A stretch of 64,000 nt of DNA, from the NCBI RefSeq assembly GCF_020037125.1, contig NZ_JAIQDG010000039.1:1-64000 (forward strand), given 5' to 3'. Under the pieces are notes generated by a model. It did no database searches, had not been told where the DNA came from, and saw nothing but the letters and a program-made list of their open reading frames with translations. This document shows, one piece after another, positions 18,868 through 38,959 of this stretch; position 1 is the stretch's first letter, and each line of letters begins with the position of its first letter. This stretch comes from Myxococcus sp. RHSTA-1-4 (GTDB lineage Bacteria; Myxococcota; Myxococcia; Myxococcales; Myxococcaceae). The translations under genes were made by a program, and so were the position numbers.

Positions 18868-19060
18868 TATGTGCCCGTAATCACTAGGGATTTCGGGCGT
18901 TTGGTCGGCTGCTCGACACTGCCTGTCCGTTCACTGCGGCCAGTGCTTTCGCCTGGACCTTCCACGTTCATTCCGGCCGCCGCTGGAGCCTCCGAGCTCG
19001 CGCGCCGCTTCCGTCTCACCAGGCCCCGGGCGACAATCCGCGCGGGTCGCTCGGGCCTGT

Positions 19061-19111: not shown

Positions 19112-19148
19112 CGCAGTCCCACCCGCCGCGCGGGACCCGAGCCACGCC

Positions 19149-22039: not shown

Positions 22040-22302
22040 GCGCGAACCTCGACGAACACGGCGGGTGGTGCGAGAGCTGCCGTAAGAGGCGAGCCTCGGT
22101 GAGGCTGCTGTTCCGCCAGGGTCAGCCGGTTTGGCTGTGCGCCGCGGCACCGTGCCGGAGCGTGCCGGGCTGGTTTCGCGTGCAGTTGCGCCGCGAGAAG
22201 GACGCACGCGCGAGGCTGCTGGTGCCCGCCGACACCGTAGGTGGAGTGCAACCCCATGGCCTGGCCGGCGAAAATCGCCGGCTCCCTGTCATGGGCCCGT
22301 GA
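22036..22302 (+). CDS. Small zinc-finger-like element protein
   Basis: 88 residues. The N-terminal half carries WCESCRKRR and a later CAAAPC pair, 24 residues apart, a plausible treble-clef or ribbon. The C-terminal half is basic. Its ATG overlaps the previous stop (ATGA). Last of the tightly coupled early group before a ~170-bp gap. Likely nucleic-acid binding by pattern; no family recognised. Confidence 0.6.
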   Translation: MSANLDEHGGWCESCRKRRASVRLLFRQGQPVWLCAAAPCRSVPGWFRVQLRREKDARARLLVPADTVGGVQPHGLAGENRRLPVMGP

Positions 22303-22474
22303 CGGCGGCGCGGCCCGGCCGCTACCCGCGCTGTGAGCGCCTCCCCTGCCCCGCTGGCGAAACCTCCGCCAGTGCTTGGCACGGGAGGCGTGCGCGTTTC
22401 GCCATTGCGCCCACGGGGGCCGCCGCGCCGCCCGCGGTGCGCGAAACCCGCGCGGCGGAACGGAGCTGCGGCAG

Positions 22475-22723
22475 GTGGCGAGGAAGCCGAAGGCGGAGGA
22501 GCAAGGCACGCACGCGGTGCGCGTGCTCCGGGGGCAGTTGGACGGCGAGGGCTACCGGCTGCGGGCTGACGAGTTGCAGCGCGCGGTTGTCGCGGCCTCC
22601 CCGGGCCTGTGGGCCCCTGGAGTGCGGCGGGACTTGGCGCAAGCGGTGTTGTTGCTGCACCAGCTCGCAGACCTGCTCGACGGGTCCGCGGAGTGGCTCG
22701 ACGCGGAGCCTCGCAACGGCTGA
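22475..22723 (+). CDS. Small helical element protein upstream of rep
   Basis: 82 residues from the GTG at 22475 (GGAGCTGCGGCAG upstream). Predominantly helical with a Leu-rich C-terminal half (DLAQAVLLLHQLADLL). Longer upstream starts would run through low-complexity sequence and are disfavoured. No family recognised. Followed by the palindrome-bearing 312-bp gap before rep. Confidence 0.5.
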   Translation: MARKPKAEEQGTHAVRVLRGQLDGEGYRLRADELQRAVVAASPGLWAPGVRRDLAQAVLLLHQLADLLDGSAEWLDAEPRNG

Positions 22724-22902
22724 CCTTTCGCCCGGGGGCGCGAAACCGGAGGCCCCCCACGGTGCGGCCGGCACGGCGGAACGTCGCCAGAGGCCCGCCC
22801 GCGCGGCTGTATCGCGCGAGGACGGGCCGATGCGGGGCACCACTGCCCCGGCCGGCAGGCGGCAGCAGCAGAGGGCTCGGCCGGAGCTGGTGCGCGCGGT
22901 GC

Positions 22903-22926
22903 CGGGGGCCTGGCGCCAGGCCCCCG
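22903..22926. repeat. Perfect 24-bp palindrome upstream of rep (origin candidate)
   Basis: The left half CGGGGGCCTGGC is followed directly by its exact reverse complement. It sits 110 bp before the rep start, in the gap 22724-23035 where no convincing gene is seen. Rolling-circle double-strand origins are often such extrudable palindromes next to rep, so an origin role is inferred; no nick consensus can be assigned. Confidence 0.55.
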
Positions 22927-23035
22927 CCGGCAATGTGGGTGGAAGTGCGCAACCCTTCCCCTCCGGTGGCCCCGAGGGCACGGCCCTGCGGGCTGCTGCT
23001 CGGCCCCGTGGGCGTGGTGGCGCTGGGGGTGGCCG

Positions 23036-24799: not shown

Positions 24800-24802
24800 A
24801 TC

Positions 24803-25069
24803 TCAGGCGTGTTGCGCGTCCGGCCTGAAAGGCTTTAACGAAATCGGCTTGGAGTGGGCGTTCAGGGCAATCAACCACTGCCCCACTCCAGACGCGAGCC
24901 GGTCCCCGAGAATGAGCCCCTCTTGCGCCCACCGGCTCAGCGTGCGTGCGGGAATCCCTGTCTTGAACGCAGCCTCTTTGATGCTCAGCCACTCCACCGC
25001 GGGGCCCGCGGTGGGAAGCGAATCAGCGAAGGGCGAGGCAGGAGGGCGCGGCGGTGGAGGGCAGCTCAT
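24803..25069 (-). CDS. HTH (excisionase/MerR-like) regulator
   Basis: 88 residues from the ATG at 25069. After a Pro-rich start, residues ~28-65 form a winged-helix/excisionase-type motif (WLSIKEAAFKTGIPARTLSRWAQEG). It is a small opposite-strand gene tucked between rep (3 bp past its stop) and the late operon, the typical place for a lysogeny repressor or Xis-like factor. Which of the two is unknown. Its start lies beside the gap 25070-25417, so it could control late transcription. Confidence 0.7.
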   Translation of the reverse strand: MSCPPPPRPPASPFADSLPTAGPAVEWLSIKEAAFKTGIPARTLSRWAQEGLILGDRLASGVGQWLIALNAHSKPISLKPFRPDAQHA

Positions 25070-25269
25070 CGCAGGAGATCGTAGAGCCAGGGCCTGACGG
25101 ATTGCACGGCGTGGCGAGTCGTGGCGAGGCCCCCGGGGTGTTTGGCGAGGGGGCAGGGTCGAACCGCACCGCGTGGCGCAACCCCTACGTGTCGCGCGCC
25201 GCGTGGCGGGTGCTGGCGGCGGACCCCGATGCATGGCGGGCCCGAAAGCGTGACAACCACTCGCGTTGA
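25054..25269 (+). CDS. Possible small ORF between the regulator and late operon
   Basis: 71 codons from a GTG at 25054, overlapping the HTH gene start by 16 bp. The end is Trp/Arg-rich (AWRNPYVSRAAWRVL). No ribosome site or family seen, and the codon pattern is only weakly coding. The rest of the gap 25070-25417 shows no clear promoter to me. Confidence 0.25.
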   Translation: MEGSSSQEIVEPGPDGLHGVASRGEAPGVFGEGAGSNRTAWRNPYVSRAAWRVLAADPDAWRARKRDNHSR

Positions 25270-25417
25270 CGGCGGCGCGCATCCTGGAGCGAGCCACCAG
25301 CGCAAGGGCACCGTGCAAGGTAAGTCCGGCAGGAGCACCGCCGGCCCCCATAGACCGGCCTAGTGGACCCCGGATGCCCGATGCGCGCCGCCGTCTCAGT
25401 AGTTCTCGCAGCACCTG

Positions 25418-26485
25418 GTGAGTGAGGCCCGCGTGTCCCTGAGTGCCGACCATCCGAGCGTGGACGAGGCCCCCGTGGACGAGCTGCGCGACGACAGCAG
25501 CGAGGCACTCAGACCCGGCAATGCGCGCAAGGCGGGACGTGCGCGGAAGCCCGGAAGGAGGCGCGAGGCGGGCCGCGGCGCGAAGGGCGGCAGGCCCGCG
25601 ACGAACCCGGGCCGCTGGCCCCGCACCTACCGGGAAATGCTCCGAAAGGCAGGCAGCGACGTGGCAGCCATCGTGAAGGCCAACGCATGGGGCCGCGCGC
25701 ACGGCGTGGCGCTGGAGGGCGCGGCGGAGCTGGTGGAGCGCAACGCGCCCCACGCGCTGACCCCGGCCGCGGACGAGGACCCGGCCGCGACTGGCCCCGT
25801 GGTGGACGTGCCCTTCTCCCGCGTCGATGCCCCTCCGGCGGAGGACGGCACGCCCCCCACGCCCCCGGCGGATGCGGGGGCACCTGGTGCCGCGGCCCCG
25901 GAGCTGGTGGAGGTGGTTGACCCCAGCGTGTTCCCCGACCTCGCGCCGCCGGGCTCCCCTCCCCCGGACGTTGGCGCCGGCACCAGCTCCAGCACGAGCG
26001 AGGCCCCGGCCGCGAGCGAGGCGCCGCCGAAGCCGGCGGACAGCTTCATGGGCGAGCCGGCGGACCTCGTAGAGGGGTGCGCGAGGGGCCCGCTGTTCAT
26101 CCTGGGGGCCATCGCGGAGATGACCCGAGGCTCCGTCATCGACCTGACGCGCCCCGTGGAACGCACGCTGTTCAAGGGCACGCCGGTTGAACGCACCGTG
26201 ACGGCGGACCCGGTAACGCGAATGGGCGAGCTTGCCGGAGTGGCCATCGCCCGGCGCGTGCAGGCGGCCGCCGCGCTCGCCGCGGAGAAGGGAGACGCCG
26301 CCGGCGGCAAGCCCTCCGTCACGTGGGAGCTGGTGCCGCTCGGCCTCGCGTTCGGCGCGGCCGTCGTGGTGCCCTCCGCCGGCAAGCTCAAGGGGGCGGC
26401 CGCCGCGGTGGGCGGGTGGTTCATGCGCGGCGCCGCTGGCGCGGCCGCGGGCGTGTCGCGGCTGGTGAGGAGGGGCGCGCGGTGA
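25418..26485 (+). CDS. Element membrane-associated protein with disordered N-terminus
   Basis: 355 residues from the GTG at 25418. Residues ~30-70 are strongly basic (Arg/Lys/Gly), ~115-215 Pro/Ala/Ser-rich and probably disordered. Two hydrophobic stretches occur near the end (LVPLGLAFGAAVVVPSAG and AAAAVGGWFMRGAAGAAAG). First gene of the late block; its TGA overlaps the ATPase GTG (GTGA), suggesting that the two products act together. A virion membrane or packaging-vertex protein is possible. No family recognised. Confidence 0.65.
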   Translation: MSEARVSLSADHPSVDEAPVDELRDDSSEALRPGNARKAGRARKPGRRREAGRGAKGGRPATNPGRWPRTYREMLRKAGSDVAAIVKANAWGRAHGVALEGAAELVERNAPHALTPAADEDPAATGPVVDVPFSRVDAPPAEDGTPPTPPADAGAPGAAAPELVEVVDPSVFPDLAPPGSPPPDVGAGTSSSTSEAPAASEAPPKPADSFMGEPADLVEGCARGPLFILGAIAEMTRGSVIDLTRPVERTLFKGTPVERTVTADPVTRMGELAGVAIARRVQAAAALAAEKGDAAGGKPSVTWELVPLGLAFGAAVVVPSAGKLKGAAAAVGGWFMRGAAGAAAGVSRLVRRGAR

Positions 26486-27219
26486 GCGAGGCCACGTGTT
26501 GCCGCACCTGTCACAGGCCCTTCCCGCGCGGCGTGGCGCGGTTCGTCCGTCCGTGGCTCCCGAGGCCCTACGAGGTCCTCATGTTGCTGGGCATGACGGG
26601 GAGCGGGAAGTCTTTCCTCTTCAAGCAGTGGCTCGCGATGCTGATGGGGGCAAACCGCGCGGTGTTCGTCCTCGACGTGGGAGACGAGTACGCGGCCACG
26701 GGGAACAACCGCGGCGGCACGCTCCAGCTCGGCCCGCTCCGGACGCGCCTCACGGTGCCGGAATTCCTCGCGCAGTGGCGCAAGTCGAGCGCTTTCATTC
26801 GAGACCCGCGCGCCGCGGTGGCCATCGTCCCCACCGTGACGGACGCTGGCGAGGCCCTCGCCGAGCACATCCGCCCCGTGCTGCGCGTCCTCTACGGCCG
26901 CGGCCGGTGCGTCATCGGCTTTGACGAGCTCCAGAAGTACGGCGCTTGGCTGGAGTCGGACCTGTACCGCGCCGCGGGCGAGCTGGGGAAGGACGGGGTG
27001 ACTCCCTTCTTCCTCTCGCAGTACCCGGGAGGCGTGCCCGAAATCGTGCGCAAGCAGGTGTCCACGTGCCTGTGTGCGGACATGGGGAAGGCGTCTGACC
27101 GCCGAATGCTCGCGTCGGACTTCGGCGAGGACTTCGGGCGCTCGCTCCAGGACCTCCCCGCGCGCACCTTCCACATTGGTTTCTCCCGCTCGCAGTTCGC
27201 GAGCATCCCCACGCGGTGA
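26482..27219 (+). CDS. FtsK/HerA-superfamily packaging-type ATPase
   Basis: 245 residues from the GTG at 26482. An N-terminal CCRTCHRPF pair may bind zinc. Walker A GMTGSGKS is at res 37-44, Walker B CVIGFDEL with Asp148-Glu149, then a sensor-like SQYPGG region and a DRRML end typical of HerA/A32 ATPases. Size fits the genome-packaging ATPases of tailless viruses (about 200-270 residues), which push DNA into preformed membrane capsids. Filamentous-phage Zot proteins also have a Walker A but are longer with a membrane anchor, not seen here. Packaging is inferred from family and its position next to the capsid candidate. Confidence 0.7.
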   Translation: MSEATCCRTCHRPFPRGVARFVRPWLPRPYEVLMLLGMTGSGKSFLFKQWLAMLMGANRAVFVLDVGDEYAATGNNRGGTLQLGPLRTRLTVPEFLAQWRKSSAFIRDPRAAVAIVPTVTDAGEALAEHIRPVLRVLYGRGRCVIGFDELQKYGAWLESDLYRAAGELGKDGVTPFFLSQYPGGVPEIVRKQVSTCLCADMGKASDRRMLASDFGEDFGRSLQDLPARTFHIGFSRSQFASIPTR

Positions 27220-27245
27220 CACCGCGGACAGAAAGGCGGCAGCAC

Positions 27246-27437
27246 ATGAGCGGCAGCGACAACCCCGAGAAGGACGGCAAGAGCTGGGGGCGCGACCTGG
27301 CCATCTTCGGCGCGGGCATGGTGACGGGCGCCGTGGGCACCGTGGTGGCCGGCCACTTCTTCCCGGCCGTGCCGGTGCCGAAGGTGGCGGCGGACGTGCT
27401 CAACGGCCCGGGGAACGACCCCGCGGCGAAGAAGTAG
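27246..27437 (+). CDS. Small single-pass membrane protein
   Basis: 63 residues from the ATG at 27246, preceded by AAAGG; an upstream GTG overlapping the ATPase stop is less likely. Polar, charged first 15 residues, one hydrophobic Gly/Ala/Val helix (LAIFGAGMVTGAVGTVVAG), then a Pro/Lys tail. Lies between the ATPase and the capsid candidate, where small virion membrane proteins occur in internal-membrane phages. No family recognised. Confidence 0.65.
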   Translation: MSGSDNPEKDGKSWGRDLAIFGAGMVTGAVGTVVAGHFFPAVPVPKVAADVLNGPGNDPAAKK

Positions 27438-27483
27438 TCCGCGGCCCTCCCCCCTTCAACCACCACACGACAGAGGCAACCAC

Positions 27484-28920
27484 GTGGCCACCGAATCGAC
27501 CCTCAACACCCTCGTGCCCTTCAAGAAGGGTAAGCAGACCCTGGAGCGTGACGCCGGCTTCATCCAGGGCCAGATGATTGCGCCGGCCGGCACCGTCACG
27601 GATGCCATCGTGATGGAGGTGGAGTGCACCATCTCCAGCACGGGAGCAATCGGAGCCCTGACGCTCGCTCAGCGGCTCTCGGTGCTCGGGCTCTTCTCCG
27701 CGAGCCTGAAGCAGTACGCGGGGGAGAACGGAGCGGTCATCTTCGAGAGCTACCAGGATGTTTCGCTCGACAAGGTGCGGCTCGACGCGCTGCGGCTCCT
27801 GGAGCAGGAGGTGGAGGGCCTCGACGACGCCACGACGGGCCTGGCCCGCTCCTACGTCCTCGGAAACAACCAGGTGGTGTTCCGGGCGTACCTGCCCACG
27901 GGCCACATCGCGAAGGTGCGCGAGTCGGTGCTCTTCACGGGTCTCAGCCCGGAGCAGCTGCTTGACTGCGAATTCACACTCAAGAGGGGAGAGGGAGACC
28001 CGTTCACGACGGCGAATGTCGGCCTGGCGCTCGGCACCGTCAAGGTGACGTTCTCGCCGGGCACGAAGAAGGCGGAGGCGCGGCGCATCGGCATTCCGCC
28101 CTTCACCCGTCGAGTGGTGAACGCGGAAAGCGATACCATCACCACCCCCCAGGGGCTGGTGTTCGACCTCAGTCACGAGGGGCCGCTGCTGGGGACCGCG
28201 CTCGGCATCCTCACCGTCAAGGCGGGCGGCATCACCGTGACGGACGACCCGAGCACGCCGGCCAAGGTCTACGCGGACTTCCTGCGCAAGTACCCGTCCG
28301 CGAGCGACGCGGAGAAGACCATCACCTCGCACCGGACGCCCGTCTACCTGGCCGCGCCCAATGCGCTGACCCGGCACTTCTCCGGCGCGGTGGAGGCGAA
28401 GCAGAAGGACAGGACGGTGGAGTGGGCCGGGCGCGTGCTCTACCTGCCGCTGCTCAAGCACGAGGAAATCCTCGCGTTGGTGGAGGCGTACGCCGCGCGC
28501 ATCGAGCCGGGGCGCCAGCTCCTGGCCGTCAATACCGCGCTCTACGAGGGCATGAACCTGGATGACAGGCTCCTGCCCTACGCGGGCATCACCGTGCTGC
28601 TCGACAACGAGGAAGGATTCGCGGACTACCCCGGCCTGTTCTGCGAGCGGAACGGGCGCGCGTACGTCCACATCCCCGAGCACCGCCAGCGCCAGGTCGT
28701 GGCGAAGGTGGCGGAGGCGATGCGCCCGGGGCAACGCCAGTTCCCGAGCGGCAACCTTCGCCTGGTGCGGTCCGCGGTGCTGGATGAGGTGCGCTGGATT
28801 CCGGGCGCGGTGACGGACCCGTCCGGGTTCCGCGTCATGTCCAAGGTCCGCCAGGACGCGACCACCATCCTGCGCGACGCGGCGCACGCCCTGCGGCCGG
28901 AGCTGGCGGCCGCGTTCTGA
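27484..28920 (+). CDS. Candidate major capsid protein
   Basis: 478 residues from the GTG at 27484 (AGAGG upstream), the largest beta-rich protein of the late block. No signal peptide, membrane helix or Cys-rich site. Two similar-sized halves are suggested: res ~1-195, and ~200-478 opening with IPPFTRRVVNAESDTI and then alternating short hydrophobic strands (LGILTVKAGGITVT, GRVLYLPLL). This matches what a double-jelly-roll coat protein of tailless phages would look like, but no diagnostic motif exists. Position right after the ATPase supports the call. Alternative: another abundant virion protein. Confidence 0.5.
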   Translation: MATESTLNTLVPFKKGKQTLERDAGFIQGQMIAPAGTVTDAIVMEVECTISSTGAIGALTLAQRLSVLGLFSASLKQYAGENGAVIFESYQDVSLDKVRLDALRLLEQEVEGLDDATTGLARSYVLGNNQVVFRAYLPTGHIAKVRESVLFTGLSPEQLLDCEFTLKRGEGDPFTTANVGLALGTVKVTFSPGTKKAEARRIGIPPFTRRVVNAESDTITTPQGLVFDLSHEGPLLGTALGILTVKAGGITVTDDPSTPAKVYADFLRKYPSASDAEKTITSHRTPVYLAAPNALTRHFSGAVEAKQKDRTVEWAGRVLYLPLLKHEEILALVEAYAARIEPGRQLLAVNTALYEGMNLDDRLLPYAGITVLLDNEEGFADYPGLFCERNGRAYVHIPEHRQRQVVAKVAEAMRPGQRQFPSGNLRLVRSAVLDEVRWIPGAVTDPSGFRVMSKVRQDATTILRDAAHALRPELAAAF

Positions 28921-28977
28921 CGCACCGGAAGCGGGGGCGCCACCGTGCGCCCCTCCCCTCCATCAACAGGTGACACC

Positions 28978-30216
28978 GTGATTGAGCTGCTTCTCTTTCT
29001 CGCAGTGCCCGCGGGCGCGGCGGCCGTTGGCCGGCGCGTGGTGCGCGCTTCCCCGCGGGGCACCACGCCGAAGGCGCAGGACGAGGAAGCCGCGGCCGGT
29101 GCTCACCAGGGGCCCGCGGCGGCCGAAAAGCCGCGGCCGCCCGACGAGGCGCCCCCGCTTCCACCCCCAGCACCAACCCCGGAGCCGGAGCCGGCCGCGC
29201 CACCTCCTGCGCAAGAGCCGGCGCTACCAGCTCCACCACCTCCGCCCCCTCCCCCGCCCCCACCAGCTCCACCGAAGCCGGCGCCGCCCGCGGCCGCGTC
29301 TGCGGTGGCCAACGGCGGCAAGCTGCTCGCGGCGGCACTCGCGGCCACGCCGGCCGCGCCTCTGGCGCCATTCGTGGGCCTCCTGTCGTCCATCTTCGGC
29401 GGGTGGATGACTGACCATGAGATGGCGAAGGTGGCGCAGCGCTACCTGCGCGACACGCGGAACGGGGCCCTGGCGCAGGGTTATTACGAGGCGTACACCG
29501 CGCTCTATAACCAGGGCGTCAACATCCACAACGCGGGCGGTGACGCGCAATGGCCTGCGCGCCTCAAGGCCGCGGACGAGGCCGGCAAGGCCGCGCGCCA
29601 CAAGGTTGCCGAGCACCTCGACAACCTGGAGCGCGACTCGTACCGCGCATGGATGGCCAAGGGGCGCGGCCTCATGGGCAACGATGACGACCACCTCTGG
29701 GAAGGGTGGTTGCTCGGTAAGGCCGGCATCACCGGCCACCCGAAGACTTCCGAGTTCAACGACGGTAGCCCCGGCGGCTGGCTCCAGATTCGCGCCACGG
29801 ACGGAATGTGTGTGCGGTGGAACTGGAAGCAGGGCCACCCGGACTATGAGGGCACCGTCCTCCCTCCAGTCTCCGATGACTATGCAGCGATGGTGGCCGC
29901 GCGCGCGGAGCAGCGGAACCGCGACAGGGTGCTCGACGAGCAGCTCGGGCGCGGCCCGGGACAGCGCAACGCGGCCATCAAGGACGACAAGCGCACGGGG
30001 ACCCACTTCGAAGATGACTTTGACGGGATTCCCGAGCCTCCGCCGCGGCCGCGCGAGACGCCTCCGCCTGCCCCTCCGCCTGCCCCGCCGCCGCCGCCAA
30101 CACCGCCGCCGTCTCTCCCCTTGCCGGCGCCGGACACCGCGCCGAAGCCCCCTCCCGTGGAGAAGGTGCCGCGCGGCGTCCCACCTGGCCGTAAGGGACG
30201 CAATTTCGAAGTCTGA
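28978..30216 (+). CDS. Proline-rich membrane-anchored element protein
   Basis: 412 residues from the GTG at 28978, preceded by AGGTGA. N-terminal membrane segment (LLLFLAVPAGAAAVG), a long Pro/Ala/Glu-rich stalk (res ~45-105, with runs of consecutive Pro), a second hydrophobic stretch (LAPFVGLLSSIFGGW), a globular Trp/Tyr-rich middle (~145-310) and a second Pro-rich tail. The architecture suggests a rod or stalk tethering a globular domain to a membrane, such as a vertex or infection protein. No family recognised. Pro codons are almost all GC-rich, like its neighbours. Confidence 0.7.
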   Translation: MIELLLFLAVPAGAAAVGRRVVRASPRGTTPKAQDEEAAAGAHQGPAAAEKPRPPDEAPPLPPPAPTPEPEPAAPPPAQEPALPAPPPPPPPPPPPAPPKPAPPAAASAVANGGKLLAAALAATPAAPLAPFVGLLSSIFGGWMTDHEMAKVAQRYLRDTRNGALAQGYYEAYTALYNQGVNIHNAGGDAQWPARLKAADEAGKAARHKVAEHLDNLERDSYRAWMAKGRGLMGNDDDHLWEGWLLGKAGITGHPKTSEFNDGSPGGWLQIRATDGMCVRWNWKQGHPDYEGTVLPPVSDDYAAMVAARAEQRNRDRVLDEQLGRGPGQRNAAIKDDKRTGTHFEDDFDGIPEPPPRPRETPPPAPPPAPPPPPTPPPSLPLPAPDTAPKPPPVEKVPRGVPPGRKGRNFEV

Positions 30217-30230
30217 CAGGAGCCGCACGG

Positions 30231-30665
30231 ATGAATTTCTCTCTCGTGATGACCGGCGCCGCGTCCCTCGTGCTGGGCGCGGGGCTTGCGCTGGCCGTGG
30301 ACGCGCGCCGCGCACGCAACGGCCAGTGTGCGGCGCACGCGCCGCGGGCAGCCGCGCAGCCCCCGGCGCCCCCTCCGGCCCCGAGCACTCCGCAGCTCCC
30401 CGCGGTGGAGCCGCGCGCCTCGCTCCCCCCGCCCGGGGCTCCCGTGCTGTGGCGTGGCGGGCTCGCCGTGGAGGAAATCGAGGCGGCAACGCCGCGGAGC
30501 CCCCCGCCCGCGCCGCCGCTGGAGCTGGAGCGAGAAACACACCTCGCGCGGCTGGGCGCGCCGCCCGTGCGCGCGGCCCGGGACGTGGACCGTCCCCCCG
30601 CGCGCCCCTTCGACCTGAGAGAGCAGGACGCGCCCATTCTCGTCGCACTGCCCGAGTGGAGCTGA
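30231..30665 (+). CDS. Small membrane-anchored Pro-rich protein
   Basis: 144 residues from the ATG at 30231 (GGAG upstream). N-terminal hydrophobic anchor (NFSLVMTGAASLVLGAGLALAV), then a Pro/Ala-rich linker and a charged C-terminal region ending in DAPILVALPEWS. A single Cys follows the anchor. Same plan as the upstream protein (anchor plus Pro-rich arm) at smaller scale. Unknown function; a virion membrane protein is inferred from context. Confidence 0.6.
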   Translation: MNFSLVMTGAASLVLGAGLALAVDARRARNGQCAAHAPRAAAQPPAPPPAPSTPQLPAVEPRASLPPPGAPVLWRGGLAVEEIEAATPRSPPPAPPLELERETHLARLGAPPVRAARDVDRPPARPFDLREQDAPILVALPEWS

Positions 30666-30671
30666 ACCGAC

Positions 30672-31127
30672 ATGAGCGAGACGAAACAGACGAATTGGCT
30701 TCCGTGGGTGGTGGGCTTGGGGGGCGCGGCCGCGGTGGCCGTCACTGGCGGACTGCTCTGGAAGGGCGCCGCGGACAAGGCGGAAGCCGCGGAGAAGCAG
30801 CTGGAGGAGGAGAAGGCCGCCCGGTACGAGGAGCAGCTCCGGAAGCTCGACGAGGCGCGGAGGGAGGCGGAAGCCTCGCGCAACGCGGACGCCGCGCGGC
30901 GCGCGGAAGAGGAAGCCGCGGCGCTGCGGGACTACTTGCGCCAGCTCCAACAGGGGCAGGCGGCCGCGAAGCCCGCCGCGCAGCAGCCGCCCGCGCAGTA
31001 CGCGCCGCCCGCTCCCCAGGCGCAGCCCCCCGCGCAGCAGCAGGGCGGCGGCATCTGGGACGACGTGAACGGGTTCCTGGGTGTCCTGGGGACGGGTATC
31101 GGCATCTATCAGTCGCTGTGGGAGTGA
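30672..31127 (+). CDS. Membrane-anchored coiled-coil protein
   Basis: 151 residues. One N-terminal transmembrane helix (WLPWVVGLGGAAAVAVTGGLLW), a strongly charged Ala/Glu/Arg coiled coil (~res 33-95), a Gln/Pro/Ala linker and a short hydrophobic end (GFLGVLGTGIGIYQSLWE). Spacer-type protein with Rz-like (spanin) layout, though no lipobox partner is seen. Starts 7 bp after the previous gene. Function unknown. Confidence 0.6.
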   Translation: MSETKQTNWLPWVVGLGGAAAVAVTGGLLWKGAADKAEAAEKQLEEEKAARYEEQLRKLDEARREAEASRNADAARRAEEEAAALRDYLRQLQQGQAAAKPAAQQPPAQYAPPAPQAQPPAQQQGGGIWDDVNGFLGVLGTGIGIYQSLWE

Positions 31128-31137
31128 GGCCCGCGCC

Positions 31138-31911
31138 ATGGCAGTGACGCGAGAGCAACAGCGGGTGATGGACGGGCTCCAAGCCAAGGTGCGCGCACTC
31201 GTGGCGCGTGCTGAGGCCGCGGCTCGGCCCGTGGAAGCGGCACAGAAATACCTCGGGTGGGTGCCGGACTGGAGCGGCACCATCGGCAACCCGGTGCTTG
31301 GAGTGCTATCCGCCGCGCGTGAGCTGCTCGGCAACGAAGAGCAGCAGAAGATTGCGGGCGCCCTGCGCGGCGTGGCCGACCTGGTGCCCCGGTGGATGGG
31401 GCCTGATGGTGCCCACTACCGCTGGGTGCAGCAGGGCAAGAGTGACGACGGCTCGGATTACACGCTGGCTGGGTGGCTGGACGAGGGCAACGCGATTGCC
31501 TCGGGGCTCGCGTATGTGCTCGGAGAGGTACACGAGGCGTCCACGGTGGCCGTCCTCGCCGACACACTTGACGCGACCTCGGAGGAATTGGCGGCGGCCG
31601 GCCGCGCCGTTGCGGAGGCGGCCGCGTCCATCCCCGAAGCCGTCACGGGCCCGTGGAGCTGGAAGGTCAAGGCGGCGCTGTGGGTCGGCGGGGGAATCGT
31701 CGGGCTCGGGGCGGCCTCCCTTGCGTGGCAGGCCGTGAGAGCTACGCCGGTGGGCCTCGCGCTGCGCGGTGTCGCCGTCGCGGCCAAGGTGGGCGCGCGT
31801 CCGTTGGGCGCGGCCGCGGAGAAGGTGGGCACGTCCCTGCGCGAGGGAATCGAGCGAGCGGAGAAGGGCACCACGCGCAAGGCCACGAGGCCGGCTCGGG
31901 GGAAAGCGTGA
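31138..31911 (+). CDS. Element membrane protein, unknown function
   Basis: 257 residues from the ATG at 31138. The first ~180 residues are soluble and helical (KYLGWVPDWSGTIGNPVLG, GALRGVADLVPRW). One membrane helix near 182-202 (AALWVGGGIVGLGAASLAW) and a basic C-terminal tail (RKATRPARG) follow. The stop overlaps the lysin GTG (GTGA), so it is coupled to lysis and may be a holin-like or virion entry protein. No family recognised. Confidence 0.6.
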   Translation: MAVTREQQRVMDGLQAKVRALVARAEAAARPVEAAQKYLGWVPDWSGTIGNPVLGVLSAARELLGNEEQQKIAGALRGVADLVPRWMGPDGAHYRWVQQGKSDDGSDYTLAGWLDEGNAIASGLAYVLGEVHEASTVAVLADTLDATSEELAAAGRAVAEAAASIPEAVTGPWSWKVKAALWVGGGIVGLGAASLAWQAVRATPVGLALRGVAVAAKVGARPLGAAAEKVGTSLREGIERAEKGTTRKATRPARGKA

Positions 31912-32561
31912 AGCCCGCGCGTCTACTCGGCGCGGTGCTGCTCACCGGCGGGGCCACTGCGGGCGCCGTGGCGCTTGCACGGCGAGCGGCGCGGCCTCCC
32001 CAGGTTGTCACGCTCCCGGAGCTGCGGCAGCTCACCCCGCGACTCACGGAGGCGCAACGCGCGCAGTACCTGCCGCACCTCAACGCGGCACTCTGGCGGT
32101 GGGACATCACCACGTTGCCCCGCGTGGCGGCGGCGCTCGGGCAGTGGTTGCATGAGTCGTGGCAGTTCTCCGCGCTCGTGGAGATTGCTCCCAACGTGGA
32201 CGCCTACGCGGCGAACGCGCGCCTGGGGAACGTGGGCGCCACGGACGCGGCCCGCTACGTCGGACGTGGCGTTACACAGCTCACCGGGGCGTACAACTAC
32301 AAGCGCGCCGCGGAAGCCCTCGGGATTGACCTGGTGAGCCGCCCGGAGCTGGCGGCCGACCCGCGCCACACCTTCGAGGTTGCCGCGTGGTTCTGGCGCA
32401 AGGGCACGTCTGCGGACCTCAACACGCTGGCAGACGGAAGCGACTTCGACGGCATCACCCGACGCATCAACGGCGGCATGAACGGCGCCGAGGATAGGCG
32501 GAAGTACCACGCGCAGGCGCTGGCCGTGCTCGGCCCCCGCCTGGGGAAAGGCACCACGTGA
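31908..32561 (+). CDS. GH19-type endolysin with N-terminal membrane anchor
   Basis: 217 residues from the GTG at 31908. Residues ~5-26 are a hydrophobic signal-anchor. The catalytic domain is GH19/chitinase-like lysozyme: LHESWQFS with candidate acid Glu83, and the hallmark YVGRGVTQLTGAYNY (Arg120-Gly121) followed by RPELAADP. These enzymes cleave peptidoglycan glycan strands. The anchor suggests a SAR-type lysin or a virion-associated lytic enzyme for penetration. Overlaps both neighbours by 4 bp. Confidence 0.85.
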   Translation: MKPARLLGAVLLTGGATAGAVALARRAARPPQVVTLPELRQLTPRLTEAQRAQYLPHLNAALWRWDITTLPRVAAALGQWLHESWQFSALVEIAPNVDAYAANARLGNVGATDAARYVGRGVTQLTGAYNYKRAAEALGIDLVSRPELAADPRHTFEVAAWFWRKGTSADLNTLADGSDFDGITRRINGGMNGAEDRRKYHAQALAVLGPRLGKGTT

Positions 32562-32857
32562 ACCCGGAGACGATGAAGGCCCTCGAAATCCTCGTGACGG
32601 CGATTGCGAGCGGCGCCGCGGCCGCGCTGGGCAACAGCCGCGCCGCGCGCCGCGCCCTGCGCAAGCTCCGCGCGCGGGTGGCCACGCTGGAGAAGGGGCA
32701 CCGTGAGTTGTCGGTGCGCACCGCGGCGAGCGAGACGCAGCACGCGAGGACGCGCGGCGCGCTCGCCCACCTCGCCGGCGCCGTCCACATCGTGGGCCAG
32801 CAGCTCGGCCTGAAGTTTGGCGCGCGCAACCGCGCGGCCACCGCGAAGGCCCCCTGA
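32558..32857 (+). CDS. Small membrane/coiled-coil protein (holin/spanin candidate)
   Basis: 99 residues from the GTG at 32558, overlapping the lysin stop (GTGA). A weak N-terminal hydrophobic segment (LEILVTAIASGAAAALG), a basic Arg/Ala helix and a heptad-like middle (LRARVATLEKGHRELSVRT). Immediate coupling to the lysin suggests a lysis role, by position only. Confidence 0.6.
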   Translation: MNPETMKALEILVTAIASGAAAALGNSRAARRALRKLRARVATLEKGHRELSVRTAASETQHARTRGALAHLAGAVHIVGQQLGLKFGARNRAATAKAP

Positions 32858-32878
32858 GGGGGAGAAAGAGAAAGTAAG

Positions 32879-33922
32879 GTGCCCATCTACACAAAGGAAG
32901 TAACGGCAAGCACGGCACAGCCGGTGCCCGCTGGAAGCGCCGGAGCGGGATTTCGAGTGAGGCCGGACCCTGCTGGGTTCAAGACGTGGCCGCCTGCAAA
33001 CTACCCCGTCACGATTCGCGCCTTTCTGGATGACGTGACGTATCGCGACCACCTCATTCTGGATTCAGGCTGCCGATTCCCGTCGGAAGGATTCATGCGC
33101 CTGGAGCTGCTCGGCGCCACTGGCGCGATGTGGCTGGTCACGACCTTTTCGACCGTGAACGACTGGGAGGAGCCGACCGCGCCGCCCCACGCGACCTATG
33201 CAGACGGAGGCAGTTTCCCCGGCAACGGGCGAGTGCCCATCGTCCTGCCCACAATGGTGCCCTCGAACGCGGACGGCTCGACTGTGCCCGGGGTGCGTGT
33301 GCCCCTGTGCACGCTGACGAACGTCCCGAAGCTCGCGGAGAGCAGCGCCGGGTTTCCGTCGCCTCTGGCGCTCGACTCTGGCGGGCGTCTCCGCGTGGCG
33401 GTGGAGTCAACGTCGGGGACCGCGCAAAGCGTGTACGTGGCGACAACAGGAGTCGGGACCTCCCTGCTGCGACTCGACAGCAATCAGCGCCTGCGCGTGA
33501 CGGAAGAGAGCGGCCTCGTGAAGCTCGCGAGTGGAACGCTGACGAGGGAGAGCGGGGGGCTGTCTGAGGAGCTGCTGGGGGCCGCGCTCGATACGTCGGC
33601 CTACCGCTTCCTGTGTCTGCGCATCGGGAACGTGACCTTCACGGGCGGCACGGGCCCCACCGCGACGCCGGCCCTCCGGAGCGTCACGCCGTCCACGCTG
33701 GGTGGGGCCGCGGGGGACCTGACTCTGCACTCGTACCTGGGGGGCACCAGCTCTGCCGGCGGCGCGGCGGAGGTGATGGTGGGACAGTGGCTCATCAACA
33801 CCGCTGTCACGGGCTCGACGCGGGGCTACTGCGGCCGCATCCTCCGCGCGCAGTGCGTGGTGACGTTCGGCGGGACGCCCACGGGCTACAGCGTGCCGTG
33901 GGAGCTGTGGGGCGAGCCGTGA
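32879..33922 (+). CDS. Putative spike/fibre (receptor-binding) protein
   Basis: 347 residues from the GTG at 32879, preceded by a purine-rich site (GGGGGAGAAAGAG). No signal or membrane helix. Beta-prone composition rich in Gly, Ser, Thr. Two related strand-turn units occur near 165-215 (LALDSGGRLRVAVES and LRLDSNQRLRVTEES), as in trimeric fibres, and the C-terminal half is Gly/Thr-rich (GNVTFTGGTGPTATP). Some codons differ from the very GC-rich neighbours. A virion spike is inferred; no family recognised. Confidence 0.55.
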   Translation: MPIYTKEVTASTAQPVPAGSAGAGFRVRPDPAGFKTWPPANYPVTIRAFLDDVTYRDHLILDSGCRFPSEGFMRLELLGATGAMWLVTTFSTVNDWEEPTAPPHATYADGGSFPGNGRVPIVLPTMVPSNADGSTVPGVRVPLCTLTNVPKLAESSAGFPSPLALDSGGRLRVAVESTSGTAQSVYVATTGVGTSLLRLDSNQRLRVTEESGLVKLASGTLTRESGGLSEELLGAALDTSAYRFLCLRIGNVTFTGGTGPTATPALRSVTPSTLGGAAGDLTLHSYLGGTSSAGGAAEVMVGQWLINTAVTGSTRGYCGRILRAQCVVTFGGTPTGYSVPWELWGEP

Positions 33923-34302
33923 GCGGCCTTTCGCGCGTGGCTGCCTTCCTGTGTGGCCTGGTGCTGCTCGCGGTGGGGGCGGACCTCATGGCGACGGGCC
34001 TTGTCCCCGAGCCTGCTACGCCGGACTGCGACAGGTGCGGCCGGAGGCGGTGTTCCCGGCTTCGCGTCGCGGAGCTGTGTGTCTCGTGCTGCCTCACGCA
34101 CGCGGACAACGCGGGCGCGGCGGAGCTGCACGAGCACGCGCTCCCGGGCACGTGCGCCGGCTGCGGCAAGGTCGCGGAGGTGGTGCCGGTGCGAATGCAG
34201 GCGTGTGACTCCTGCGCGGTGGACGTGCGCGAGGAAATGCGCGCGCACGCGGCGGCGAAGGACGCCGCGGAGAAGCCGCCGGAGAAGCCGGCGGAGAGCT
34301 GA
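33919..34302 (+). CDS. Membrane-anchored double zinc-ribbon protein
   Basis: 127 residues from the GTG at 33919 (GTGA overlap with the fibre gene). N-terminal membrane helix (VAAFLCGLVLLAVGADLMA) followed by three CxxC-type pairs (CDRCG, CAGCG, CDSC) plus CVSCC, enough for two zinc sites, and a Lys/Glu tail. Unusual combination for a phage; function unknown. Confidence 0.6.
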   Translation: MSGLSRVAAFLCGLVLLAVGADLMATGLVPEPATPDCDRCGRRRCSRLRVAELCVSCCLTHADNAGAAELHEHALPGTCAGCGKVAEVVPVRMQACDSCAVDVREEMRAHAAAKDAAEKPPEKPAES

Positions 34303-34491
34303 CGGAGTGCGCGGCGCGCGGTGGACGGCCGCGCGTCGCACTCCCCTCCCCTTCAACGAATGCAGTGGTGTCCCCCGCGCTGGCGTGCACGTGCACGCGG
34401 TGACGGGGGACGTGTTGCCGCAAACAGCCCGACTCCACCGCGGGGCGTGGAGAGCGGGCCCTCACGAGCCCCGGACGAAGGACACAGCGAC

Positions 34492-34806
34492 ATGGCGAGC
34501 AGAAACGGAATCGTGGCGTGGGTGCTGGCGGGCGTGTGCGCGGTGGCGGGCACGCTGGCGACGTACCTCCCCGAGGGCCAGGTGCAGCAGGGCGCGGACA
34601 CGGCCGCGCAGGTGTGCGAGGCCAGCGGCTTCACGGCGTACCCGCGCCAGCCGGACGGCGGCATCGTTCCGCGCCCCGAGGCGGAGGACGACGGCCGGCG
34701 CGTGGGCCTCGTGCGCCAGGGCAACGGCTTCGCCCCGGTGCTGGTGCCCGCCGGCAGCGGCCCGCGGGCGTCCTCCACCGTGGAGGACGTGGGCGAGGCG
34801 CAGTGA
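34492..34806 (+). CDS. Small membrane protein with polar tail
   Basis: 104 residues from the ATG at 34492, preceded by GAAGGA. One N-terminal membrane helix (IVAWVLAGVCAVAGTLATYL), then a soluble polar domain (PRQPDGGIVPRPEAEDDG). Preceded by a 189-bp gap without a clear gene. The stop overlaps the next GTG. Virion membrane protein by context; no family. Confidence 0.6.
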   Translation: MASRNGIVAWVLAGVCAVAGTLATYLPEGQVQQGADTAAQVCEASGFTAYPRQPDGGIVPRPEAEDDGRRVGLVRQGNGFAPVLVPAGSGPRASSTVEDVGEAQ

Positions 34807-34910
34807 GTGACGCGCACGCGGCCGGTGCCCTCGTCCTGCTCGTGTGGGCCGCGGGCCTGGCCGCGTTGCGCTGGTGGCCGGTGCGCGAGGACCTCGAAGA
34901 GCGCAGGTGA
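34803..34910 (+). CDS. 35-residue single-pass membrane peptide
   Basis: GTG at 34803, overlapping the previous stop (GTGA). Short polar start, a hydrophobic helix (AGALVLLVWAAGLAALRWW) and a charged tail (REDLEERR). Spacing, coupling and a clean helix support reality. Miniproteins of this size are typical of internal-membrane phages. Function unknown. Confidence 0.5.
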   Translation: MSDAHAAGALVLLVWAAGLAALRWWPVREDLEERR

Positions 34911-34950
34911 GGAAGAGCGGAGCCACGCGCCCCCGTGCTACGTAGGCGTC

Positions 34951-35205
34951 ATGTCCACGCACGCCGCACCCTGGGGACTCTGGTTTGAGTGGTTCCGCGC
35001 CTCCGAGCGAGTTGGCGCGGCCCGCATTGCGATGACGGATTTTGTCATGCAGCCGCGCACGGTGTGCGTGGTGCTGGAGCCCCTCCCCGTCCCCTGTCCC
35101 CATTGCGCGGTTGGCTGGGCATGGCTCGCGGCGCGGTTGGCGGCGGCCCGCACCGCGGAGAGGTTCGCCCGCTGGCGGCTGGAGCGCAGCAGCGCCGCCG
35201 CGTGA
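34951..35205 (+). CDS. Small element protein with CPHC motif
   Basis: 84 residues from the ATG at 34951. Trp-rich start (WGLWFEWFRASER), a PVPCPHCAVGW pair that may bind metal, and an Arg/Ala helical end. No family recognised. Confidence 0.45.
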   Translation: MSTHAAPWGLWFEWFRASERVGAARIAMTDFVMQPRTVCVVLEPLPVPCPHCAVGWAWLAARLAAARTAERFARWRLERSSAAA

Positions 35206-35217
35206 GGTAGCGTCTCC

Positions 35218-35706
35218 ATGACCTGCCCCCAGCCACCACGCCGGCCGTATCGCCCCCAGCGCGAGGACCTCGACGCGCACCCGCCCGCGCGGAAGCTGCG
35301 GCGCGGCGCGGTGCTGCGCGACCTGGCCAGCAGGCCCGGCCCGTGGGGCGCGCTGCTCGCGCTGGTGATGCTGCTCGCCGGCACCGCACTGCTACACGTG
35401 GAGCCCTCCCCGGAGCTGGAGCACGCCGCGGTGGAGCTGCTCGACGCGGGCGAGCCTGACGCGGGCGTGGTGGTGGACGTGCACCAGGACCAGGCCGGCA
35501 GCTTGCGAGCCCAACGCATCCCGGAGAAGCCTGACCCACGCTGGGAGCGGGCCCCCTGCCCGGGCGGCTACGTGGAGGTACGCGGGACGTGCTGGGCGCG
35601 GCTCGACAACCGGCCCCCCTGCCCCGTTGCGACGTACGAGCACGCGGGCCGCTGCTACGTGCCGCTGCTCAAGGCACCGAAGCTGCCCAACTCCATCAGC
35701 GAGTGA
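35218..35706 (+). CDS. Membrane protein with kinase-tail-like Cys motif
   Basis: 162 residues from the ATG at 35218. Cytoplasmic basic region (~res 1-40), one membrane helix (WGALLALVMLLAGTALLHV), then an acidic linker and a Cys-rich C-terminal module (PCPGGYVEVRGTCWARL, RPPCPVATYEHAGRCYVP). From memory, that module resembles the extracytoplasmic tail of many myxobacterial Ser/Thr kinases; there is no kinase domain here. Last plus-strand gene of the element; could be a host-derived acquisition. Confidence 0.65.
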   Translation: MTCPQPPRRPYRPQREDLDAHPPARKLRRGAVLRDLASRPGPWGALLALVMLLAGTALLHVEPSPELEHAAVELLDAGEPDAGVVVDVHQDQAGSLRAQRIPEKPDPRWERAPCPGGYVEVRGTCWARLDNRPPCPVATYEHAGRCYVPLLKAPKLPNSISE

Positions 35707-35721
35707 CCCGCTGGTGCCCGC

Positions 35722-36174
35722 TCATGGCGGGCAGGGACACGCCGGCCGCTGGATGACGCTTCCCTTGGCACGGCGGAACCGCTCCCCGCACCGCCGACAA
35801 CGCAGCACGTCCGGGGAGGGCGCGACCTCCGCCAGGTGCCCGGCGGAGTGCCCCTCTTCACCAGGACGCGGGACGACGTAGAGCCCCGCGGCGCGGCGCT
35901 CTTCACGGTCCGCGTCGCGGGCCTCGCGGACCATCGCGGCGAGCTGCTCAGCGGGGCACGTGAGGCACCGCCAGAGGTGCCCGCTTCCGGCCCGGTGCGA
36001 GCGGCACACCGGGCGAAAGCACACCGCGCAGTGGCGCCAGCACCAGGCGCCGCACGCATCGAACCGGCAACGGCGAGCCTGGGGACGCGGGCAGTAGGCC
36101 ACGGGGTCAGAGGGGACACAGGCGGGGCGGGATTGCGCCGCTTGCAGAGGAGTGGGCAGGCGCCTTACTCTCAC
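35722..36174 (-). CDS. Cys-rich zinc-finger protein at the right end of the element
   Basis: 150 residues from a GTG at 36174; the adjoining GGAGG is too close for an ideal start, so a later start is possible. Cys/His pairs are dense: ACGAWCWRHCAVCFRPVC (a RING/FYVE-like spacing), CLTCP, and a C-terminal ribbon CRRCGERF...CPCP. Convergent with the preceding gene (15 bp apart). Unknown role; perhaps a regulator expressed in the lysogen, as it is one of only two minus-strand genes of the element. Confidence 0.6.
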   Translation of the reverse strand: MRVRRLPTPLQAAQSRPACVPSDPVAYCPRPQARRCRFDACGAWCWRHCAVCFRPVCRSHRAGSGHLWRCLTCPAEQLAAMVREARDADREERRAAGLYVVPRPGEEGHSAGHLAEVAPSPDVLRCRRCGERFRRAKGSVIQRPACPCPP

Positions 36175-36197
36175 CTCCGCTCGCCCGCAAAAAGGGC

Positions 36198-36232
36198 GGG
36201 CCCGGTGAGTGTTGGAGCACTCGCCCGGGCCC
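36198..36232 (-). terminator. Strong hairpin near the right end of the element
   Basis: GGGCCCGG...GAGTG pairs with CACTC...CCGGGCCC around a short loop, with one internal mismatch. On the minus strand it is followed by GCCC then TTTTT, so it reads as a terminator for transcripts entering from the chromosome on the right, just before the Cys-rich gene. The stretch 36233-36434 holds nothing else that I recognise. Confidence 0.5.
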
Positions 36233-36434
36233 TAGGCACGTCAGGTGTTCTCAGGCACCTGCGGCATGTCGGTGGTTCCGCGTTTCTCAGCGTGGGCCGC
36301 GCGGCAGAGGCCCCGGAACCGGAAGCTTTGAGTGTCGCCGCTCCAAGGGCGCGTTGTAGCGACTCGGCCTGACGGCCGGGGCGAAACGGGTGCGCCGTGC
36401 GAGTGCGAAACGGACAGCGACGCTACTGCATAAG

Positions 36435-36462
36435 GCGACAGAACACAACCGTTATCGGACAT
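36435..36462 (-). other. Half dif-like site (right junction of the element)
   Basis: Minus strand: XerC-type arm ATGTCCGATAA (36452-36462), spacer CGGTTG, then TGTTCTGTCGC, which does not resemble a XerD arm. The XerC arm differs by one base from that of the left junction. This is the pattern expected when a circular element with a good XerC arm but degenerate XerD arm recombines into dif: the chromosomal XerC arm ends up here. Confidence 0.75.
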
Positions 36463-36696
36463 TCCGACAGAGGGAGGCCAGGGGAGTTCGGGCCACCGCC
36501 GGCTCGGTTCCGGAGCTGCTCCTGGCGTGGCCTGCGGAGCCCCACGGCGGCGGTTCGCGGGACCGGACTCCCCTGATGCTGGAACCCTGCTGATGGCTGC
36601 CCGCGTTTCGTGCTGGGCAGTTCGCCTGAGGCTCGGTTGCCTGCATGGCAGTCCGTGCTTTCCGGAGCCCCTTCCGGCGCATACCGTGGCCGCCCC

Positions 36697-37239
36697 ATGC
36701 GTTTCGTTCGCTTTGGATTCGCCGTGGTCGTCTGCTGTGGAGCCCTCGTCCTGACCGGCTGTCCCGACAAGCCCGCGGCCACGACCGACGCCGGCACGGC
36801 CGAGACCGCCCAGGCCCCTACGATGCCTCCGCCCGCGCGGTTCTCGCTCAGTTACCAGGCCCCCGATGCGGGCCTGGTCGAGATCTCACTCGCCCCCGAC
36901 GAAAAGCCGCTCATCGAGGCTACGTCGGTGCTTGAGCTCCGCAGTACTCCCGGGCTCCGGAACTACCGGGTCCGGCTGTTCGATGAGGCCGAACGCGCGA
37001 TGGTCTCCGACGATGACGTCGAGGAATCCGAGTCCGGGCTCGTCTACCGCATCAACCTTCCTCAGCCGCTCAAGACCGGCTTCGAATACACCCTGGTCGT
37101 CGACGCCCAGACCGGCTCGGCCTTTACCGACTCCTTGGGCCGCGAGGTCGAGGAACTCCGGACCACGTTCCAGATCGCCGGCGAGAAGGAAAAGCCGGCT
37201 CCGCCGCCTCCGCCCGCCAAGAAGAAAAAGCGTAAGTAG
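36697..37239 (+). CDS. Putative lipoprotein with C-terminal Lys tail
   Basis: 180 residues from the ATG at 36697. Signal ending in the lipobox LTGC (Cys ~22), a Pro/Ala/Thr linker, an Ig-like beta domain (RFSLSYQAPDAGLVEISL to YTLVVDAQTGSAF, perhaps SbsA-Ig-like) and a tail of Pro followed by KKKKRK. First host gene to the right of the element. Probably an outer-membrane or periplasmic lipoprotein; function unknown. Confidence 0.75.
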   Translation: MRFVRFGFAVVVCCGALVLTGCPDKPAATTDAGTAETAQAPTMPPPARFSLSYQAPDAGLVEISLAPDEKPLIEATSVLELRSTPGLRNYRVRLFDEAERAMVSDDDVEESESGLVYRINLPQPLKTGFEYTLVVDAQTGSAFTDSLGREVEELRTTFQIAGEKEKPAPPPPPAKKKKRK

Positions 37240-37349
37240 CTGGCCGGATGCGCCCCTCTGGGCCATTCAGCCGGACTCCCCGCGCGAGTCATCAGAGCGC
37301 CCGGGCTCGGGCGACGCCCTCTGGTAAGTCCCCGAAAACGGCCTGCGGA

Positions 37350-37521
37350 CATTCATGAATGTTCCTGGGCGCACTGCTGGGGCCACGGGAATGTTCTTTG
37401 GAGGGAAAAGAATATTCTCGGATGTTGGTTGGTCGTGCCGGAATATTCCTGTGTGCCTCCGCAGTCTCCGGAAATGTTCTTTTGATCATGAGAATGTTCT
37501 TTGGGGCGAAAAGAATGTTCT
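37350..37521. repeat. Helically phased array of GAATRTTC boxes
   Basis: Boxes start at 37357, 37389, 37410, 37441, ~37472 (one base longer), 37492 and 37513. Intervals are 32, 21, 31, 31, 20 and 21 bp, all two or three helical turns. The first sits in a 14-bp perfect palindrome (37350-37363). A 30-bp unit recurs at 37389-37418 and 37492-37521 with ~27 identities. It occupies the 330-bp gap between two convergent genes, so an ordinary promoter role is unlikely. Confidence 0.75.
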
Positions 37522-37569
37522 TGGGCGCCCTTCCGGATCAGCCCAGGTCTCCTGTGGGCCCTGGGGCAT

Positions 37570-38043
37570 CTATAGCCTGTCGAGCCACGCCCTTTGCGCC
37601 AGGGTATCCGGAACGGGGCAACCGCGGACCTTCTCGATCTGGCGCCAGGCCTCATCAGAGGGCACTCCGCTCAGCCGCAGCAACGAGGCGGCGAACAGGC
37701 AGGAGCGGCCAATTCCCATCCTGCAATGTGCCGCTACCGCCGCCCCGTCCTCGACACGCTTGGCGAGCCGGGCCAGTACAGGGCGCACCTGCTCCACGTC
37801 CGGCACGTCTCGGTCAGGAACCGGGAGTGAGACGAACTCCAGACCGACGCGGGCCGCTGTTTCCGCCTCCCGAGTGAGCTCGAGCGCCTCCTCTTCATCC
37901 GCGCAGAGCATCGACGCCAGGACATCGAAGCCGTCTGCGCGGAGGGCGGCGAGTTCATCCGCCAGCCAGTCTCCGCCGCGGGGCCTGCCGACGACAGCAA
38001 CGCGCCCCCGCCCGATCGGGACGGGGAAGATGCGACGCAACAT
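37570..38043 (-). CDS. Dual-specificity/tyrosine phosphatase-like protein
   Basis: 157 residues from the ATG at 38043, preceded by AGGGGG; longer starts are disfavoured. The active-site loop HCRMGIGRS (CX5R, nucleophile Cys) is intact, with an upstream candidate general-acid Asp in PVPDRDVPD. Family members dephosphorylate Tyr or Ser/Thr in proteins, or sometimes nucleotides and phosphoinositides; the substrate is unknown. Cytoplasmic, no signal. Minus-strand, 100 bp downstream of the DUF3014 gene. Confidence 0.85.
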   Translation of the reverse strand: MLRRIFPVPIGRGRVAVVGRPRGGDWLADELAALRADGFDVLASMLCADEEEALELTREAETAARVGLEFVSLPVPDRDVPDVEQVRPVLARLAKRVEDGAAVAAHCRMGIGRSCLFAASLLRLSGVPSDEAWRQIEKVRGCPVPDTLAQRAWLDRL

Positions 38044-38143
38044 ATGAATTCCCCCTTCGAAGTTGCGCGTCTCCGTGACGCGCTGAAGTCTCTGTCGCGG
38101 TAGTGCCATGGCGCCCGCGTCCGCCTCCGAAGGGGCCGCGCTG

Positions 38144-38959
38144 TCAGCGCTCCGCCACGGGCGGCAGCCCCAGGGCGCTCTGCAGCTCCCGGAGCTTGCC
38201 CTGGATGATTCGCATGTTCTGCGGCCCCATGCGCAGCAGGTGCTTCTGGGCGGCGCTCAAGCCCTCCAGTTCCGGCGAGGCATAGGCGTACAGCGCCCCC
38301 CGGGGCTCCACCTCCACCGCCCCCTCCTGAACCGGAACGGCCAGCAGGTGCTGGATGGCCCGGCTGAACGTCCCGTCGAACGTCTGTGCCGGCGGCGCAA
38401 TCTCCCGGTGGGCCTGGTCGATCAGCGGCTTCAGCTCGCGGTACACGCTGCCCGCCGCCTGGGCATCCAGCGACCCGAACACCCGCGCCACCGTGTCGTA
38501 CCGCGCGTAGCTCCGCGGTTCGATGGTCGTCTTGCCCTTTGCCCCGGCCACCTCGAAGCCCCCGGCCGGAGCCAGGAAACCCAGGACCATTCGCGGGCTG
38601 GCGCCTTCCGCGACGTTGTTCACCGCCGCCGTGAAGCGCCGGACCAGGTCCTTCTCCTGCAGCCACTTCGCGAACTCGGGCTCACTCGATAGCCGGCCCA
38701 CCGAATCCCGCACCCGGCCATCGCTCTCCGGGAGAGAAACCTCCGGCGGCGGCGCCTCGGCCAGTCCCGCGTCCACCACGGGCGTGGCGGTGACCTCGGG
38801 CGGACGCGCCTCCTCCTGCCGCCGGAGTCCGAAGTACGAGGCAATCAGGGCCAGTCCCGCGAGGCCCAGGACCACGATCAGCGTCTTCGCGCGGTTGCCT
38901 CCCGGAGACGGCGGCGTCGGCGGGACACCTGGGGACGGCGGGTTCATCGGTTCGCTCAT
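38144..38959 (-). CDS. DUF3014 membrane-anchored protein
   Basis: 271 residues. Pro-rich cytoplasmic start, one membrane helix (~res 25-45, TLIVVLGLAGLALIASYFGL), then a periplasmic domain matching DUF3014 (SVGRLSSEPEFAKWL, RRFTAAVNNVAEG, YRELKPLIDQAHREI). The family is common in proteobacteria without known biochemical function. No lipobox or catalytic motif. Confidence 0.85.
   Translation of the reverse strand: MSEPMNPPSPGVPPTPPSPGGNRAKTLIVVLGLAGLALIASYFGLRRQEEARPPEVTATPVVDAGLAEAPPPEVSLPESDGRVRDSVGRLSSEPEFAKWLQEKDLVRRFTAAVNNVAEGASPRMVLGFLAPAGGFEVAGAKGKTTIEPRSYARYDTVARVFGSLDAQAAGSVYRELKPLIDQAHREIAPPAQTFDGTFSRAIQHLLAVPVQEGAVEVEPRGALYAYASPELEGLSAAQKHLLRMGPQNMRIIQGKLRELQSALGLPPVAER

Follow-up and report, generated by a model that had tools for sequence, protein, structure and literature searches.

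The DNA analysed here (the window) is a 64,000-nt stretch of Myxococcus sp. RHSTA-1-4. At 37357-37520, 3' of a lipoprotein gene that converges with the next gene, it exhibits an array of six exact GAATRTTC boxes and one box with a single mismatch. The features of the locus, including dif and the ends of an element inserted in it, are the following:

about 18837-18864, + strand: intact dif (TTTAGTTTACATAACGCATGTTATCGGAC...), matching the dif published for M. xanthus; now the left-hand end of the element
about 36443-36465, + strand: hybrid half-dif (..CAACCGTTATCGGACATTCCGAC) at the right-hand end of the element
36697-37239, + strand: lipoprotein gene without Pfam family, upstream of the array; kept in 27/27 genus genomes and used as locus marker
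37347-37354, - strand: weak candidate for an eighth box, GGACATTC in + strand letters; one mismatch, a helical turn ahead of box 1
37357-37364, + strand: box 1, GAATGTTC; exact motif match, orthologous arrays in relatives
37389-37396, + strand: box 2, GAATGTTC; exact motif match
37410-37417, no strand: box 3, GAATATTC, a perfect palindrome; exact motif match
37441-37448, no strand: box 4, GAATATTC, a perfect palindrome; exact motif match
37472-37479, + strand: box 5, AAATGTTC; one mismatch, same variant present in the arrays of two relatives (G022, G002)
37492-37499, + strand: box 6, GAATGTTC; exact motif match
37513-37520, + strand: box 7, GAATGTTC; exact motif match
37570-38109, - strand: gene for a DSP/PTP-type phosphatase; in this genome an insertion that parts the array from the DUF3014 gene
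38144-38959, - strand: DUF3014 gene; in relatives usually the array's convergent neighbour

The possible eighth box was left out of all statistics. GAATRTTC gives 8 strand-matches at 6 sites, against 0.59 expected from shuffled sequence, and no match in the 64-kb window lies outside the array. A preliminary description of this DNA had claimed seven GAATRTTC boxes; six are exact, and the fifth departs from the motif at a single base. Its box-to-box intervals of 32, 21, 31, 31, 20 and 21 bp were reproduced exactly, and the duplication of a sub-unit of about 30 bp is borne out by two copies (37384-37421 and 37487-37524) with 84% identity across 38 nt. The flanking genes are convergent as it had stated, the lipoprotein gene ending at 37239 on the + strand and the phosphatase-like gene running from 37570 on the - strand. 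The orthologue of the phosphatase gene in G002 (77%) lies apart from the array, at 11.43 Mb of the chromosome, indicating that this gene has moved.

We recognised dif as the conserved sequence AGTTTACATAACGCATGTTATCGGACCT, whose reverse complement is the M. xanthus dif as published (PMC2731167). Where uninterrupted, the distance from dif to the first box is 0.7-1.0 kb (nine array-bearing genomes). The distance of about 0.9 kb given in the preliminary description thus holds for the relatives; in the window, it is the hybrid half-dif that lies there, and the intact dif is about 18.4-18.5 kb from the array, displaced by the inserted element. The insertion left the array beside the lipoprotein gene with its boxes intact.

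The element itself (about 17.6 kb, 18842-36460), with the intact dif on its left and the hybrid half-site on its right, has relatives in three other genomes (G015, locus L140; G008; G041, locus L135). Its genes include one for a weakly Rep/G2P-like protein (23036-24796), one for a HerA/FtsK-like P-loop ATPase (26323-27216) and one for a conserved 478-aa protein (27484-28917), whose predicted structure (mean pLDDT 33) is unusable. None of the element proteins scanned had a confident PHROGs match, and no relative of the 478-aa protein was found in phage records. The element possibly represents a new family of dif-integrating phages.

Distribution, phasing and conservation of the boxes

We surveyed 195 genomes of the phylum, 27 of them from the genus Myxococcus/Pyxidicoccus and 168 others. 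Named members of the Myxococcus/Pyxidicoccus group include Pyxidicoccus fallax, P. caerfyrddinensis, M. llanfairpwllgwyngyllgogerychwyrndrobwllllantysiliogogogochensis and M. qinghaiensis. An array of 4-7 boxes is found just 3' of the lipoprotein gene in 11 of the 27 species, the boxes following within about 10-280 bp of the stop codon; it is absent in the other 16, M. xanthus-like genomes among them. In every array-bearing genome the array is 3' of this same gene, which is convergent with the next one. The genome search proposed in the preliminary description returned a single array per genome, always at the same locus: outside it, the 11.2-Mb genome of the window strain nowhere has two boxes within 30 bp of each other, and there is no second 2-box or 3-box match away from the locus in the 11 array-bearing genomes. 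The 168 genomes outside the genus exhibit no 3-box cluster except on one eukaryote-like contig of a myxobacterial assembly (G121, contig C69, locus L114). This contig (4.8 kb, AT-rich) looks like a eukaryotic retrotransposon and carries heat-shock-element-like GAATATTC repeats with a 16-bp spacing; its match was set aside as likely contamination.

Single RGAATRTTCY boxes are thinly scattered chromosome-wide, and clustering is seen at the array only. Readings of these isolated boxes as a regulon or as the binder's own promoter were rejected: many of the sites lie inside genes, and no regulator turned up at a promoter. Four site regions are common to G002 and G010, of which two are coding, one falls within a dispersed palindrome and one lies upstream of an uncharacterised gene. 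A dispersed palindrome (GGAAGGAAYRTTCCTTCC), which has the same 8-bp core, recurs in G010 (L185, L189, L190, L192, L196, L198, L201 and L206-L208), with identical 30-bp surroundings in four copies, and G002 has it at least once (L179).

In a tree built from two neighbouring proteins, the array falls in two separated clades, a pattern requiring three changes. By this pattern the array may either be ancestral and subsequently lost, or have arisen twice at the same place. M. eversor (G013), the sister of an array-bearing species, shows what its sequence marks as a decayed remnant: the interior of the array is gone between near-identical flanks, and the remaining last box is mutated at 2 of its 8 bases within conserved flanks. 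Array-bearing genomes measure 10.8-13.5 Mb versus 9.0-10.4 Mb for array-less ones, the decayed G013 (11.4 Mb) being the exception, a size difference that is confounded with ancestry.

The 55 intervals across all arrays are mostly of 20-22 and 28-36 bp. Their best period is 10.4-10.6 bp (R=0.73), equalled by none of 5,000 random sets, under a null of uniform intervals of 18-39 bp that ignores shared ancestry; the intervals are also not independent, some of them sharing descent or tandem duplication. In two genome subsets, none of 20,000 random sets each was phased as well. Larger gaps (51, 53 and 84 bp) are likewise near whole helical turns, and the phase is weak in G041. Loss of the spacing in relatives, which the preliminary description had named as a refutation, is thus not what the 55 intervals exhibit. 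The spacers have diverged between species, and the boxes and their phase of about 10.5 bp have been kept. In six of seven species pairs the spacers are less conserved than the boxes, in either direction of comparison, though the anchoring of the alignment may still favour the latter. The central step is TG/CA in 61 of 66 boxes, TA in 5 and CG in none. One clade mixes the orientations of its boxes (9 TG, 15 CA, 2 TA); in the other, 34 of 40 boxes point the same way.

Position in the chromosome and possible roles

In nine closed genomes the array locus lies at 0.48-0.53 of the chromosome from dnaA, that is, opposite the origin and beside dif, as expected of a terminus-linked cis element. GC skew flips sign across the locus in 9/9 array-bearing genomes checked. 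That the array serves the terminus is our best guess from this position; none of the genomes examined sets a terminus role cleanly apart from a purely local one, since the lipoprotein gene itself adjoins dif in nearly all of them.

The array is likely a maintained DNA binding array. The preliminary description had proposed a nucleoid, segregation or terminus binding platform. A platform is the reading that fits best, because the boxes are more conserved than the spacers, the phase is kept across species, each genome has one array and this array lies at the terminus; the terminus-type role follows from the position. We see an even chance that the array provides a binding platform of double-stranded DNA next to dif, with a putative dimeric protein on each GAAT(R)TTC core and a cooperative complex at the terminus. 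In such a platform a putative, probably dimeric protein would bind each near-palindromic 8-bp core and, judging from the motif, might introduce a kink at its central TpR step. Boxes two or three helical turns apart would place several dimers on about the same face of the DNA, and stacked dimers or wrapped DNA could then form one cooperative complex. This complex may help to organise, position or finish the replication of the dif region. Against the platform, the analysis revealed no binder of the boxes and, up to 20 kb from the array, no gene that tracks it; moreover, 16 of the 27 species manage without the array.

A protein bound to the array might instead act locally, as an insulator or roadblock that separates or ends the convergent transcription of the lipoprotein and DUF3014 genes, with no role at the terminus. 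The constant location 3' of the lipoprotein gene and facing the next gene agrees with this, as does a terminator-like stem at 37386-37420. So may the window, where the array stayed with the lipoprotein gene, boxes intact, at 18.4 kb from the intact dif, moved 17.6 kb by an insertion that may be old or recent. However, in array-less relatives the same two genes still converge, only tens of bp apart, with no substitute terminator seen by eye, and such a role does not obviously need 4-7 helically phased dyads. We regard it as rather unlikely. Stalling of replication forks just past dif, in analogy to Tus/ter or RTP/ter, would also suit the terminus position, and the finer mapping of the skew at first sight favours such a barrier: the changepoint is no more than about 100 bp from dif in the array-bearing G010 and G003, versus -44 kb in the array-less G006. 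Yet the array-less G009 and G014 switch within 100 bp of dif too, whereas the array-bearing G002 does so 10 kb away. We therefore do not count the skew switch in favour of a fork trap, as it occurs at dif with and without the array and does not discriminate. With the array on one side of dif only, and with Tus absent, a fork barrier is quite improbable.

The boxes might also function in RNA: the lipoprotein mRNA could have, in its 3' untranslated region, a structured RNA or the site of an RNA-binding protein. The window array, read on its + strand, folds better than shuffled sequences (z -3.3), boxes are able to pair mutually, and those of one clade are largely in the same orientation. However, both strands fold about equally well against spacer-shuffled controls keeping the boxes, and the flanks of neighbouring boxes pair no more than shuffled flanks (less in clade B). 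The mixed orientation found in the other clade alters the RNA sequence, giving two RNA sequences but a single DNA site. Mixed orientation, unpaired flanks and the similar folding of both strands together favour binding to double-stranded DNA. Compensatory pairing across species is lacking, and Rfam gave no match in the array, one sub-threshold miRNA match lying outside it. The structured small RNA that the preliminary description had offered as an alternative is disfavoured by the mixed orientation and the box flanks without covariation, and an RNA role seems to us very unlikely. We consider it equally hard to believe that the array is functionless debris of a tandem repeat or mobile element, with a spacing that reflects the length of duplicated units. 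Duplication has occurred, as shown by the 38-bp block of the window array and by two identical 20-bp units in G042. But dispersed copies are absent from the genome, the same box recurs at one locus in two separated clades, and the spacers diverge faster than the boxes. The single locus per genome rules out a dispersed repeat (REP, MITE). Among possible plasmid, phage or viral relatives of the array, there was no plasmid match and a phage match of only 24 bp, at chance level; matches in viral contigs, mostly multiples of three or 11 bp apart, were read as coding or simple repeats, their frames unchecked. The block is thus neither dispersed nor the decayed transposable repeat that the preliminary description had set as a refutation.

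Comparison with known systems

Few bacterial groups are known to have a sequence-specific terminus system. The proposed platform resembles MatP/matS of the Escherichia coli terminus macrodomain in its palindromic sites, in its (here putative) dimeric reader and in its tie to the terminus and dif. The matS sites are 13 bp long and dispersed across about 800 kb, whereas here boxes of 8 bp form one array of 0.1-0.25 kb. GAATRTTC is, by inspection only, unlike the matS consensus (GTGACRNYGTCAC), and a profile search for MatP (PF06303) was negative in all 27 genus genomes, with a positive E. coli control.

With plasmid centromere and iteron arrays (parC, parS clusters, 20-22 bp iterons) the array shares short repeats in helical register. 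Such plasmid repeats load several dimers cooperatively. In contrast, the array described here is chromosomal, far from dnaA, without a neighbouring gene that tracks it and without a plasmid match.

The fork traps Tus/ter and RTP/ter are, like the complex putatively formed here, multi-site DNA-protein complexes at the terminus, and RTP binds adjacent half-sites as dimers (PMC10331603). Their ter sites are scattered and polar; the present boxes are near-symmetric and are grouped to one side of dif in a single cluster. Tus (PF05472) was found in 0/27 genus genomes by profile search, the E. coli control being positive. According to one review, most species seem to be without a fork trap (PMC10331603).

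A nucleoid-associated DNA binder is known from the same genus. CdbA of M. xanthus, a ribbon-helix-helix protein, bends DNA and affects nucleoid organisation, and its motif, present at over 500 sites, is a direct repeat with a 4-bp gap (PMC7156744). The boxes of the array are near-palindromes, a distinction drawn from the description of the CdbA motif and not from a comparison of letters, and M. xanthus-like genomes are without the array.

The array thus suggests a candidate, hitherto undescribed protein-docking platform for the terminus region. A compact array beside dif, together with natural array-less sister species, would make terminus organisation testable by deletion and transplantation in soil bacteria that are harmless, and the array could serve as bait for its binding protein. 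More tentatively, and with some doubt, we propose that it represents a third terminus-specific system, in which a dimeric protein would occupy one phased array beside dif, unrelated to MatP/matS, Tus/ter and RTP/ter, kept in the genus's larger genomes and lost in its smaller ones.
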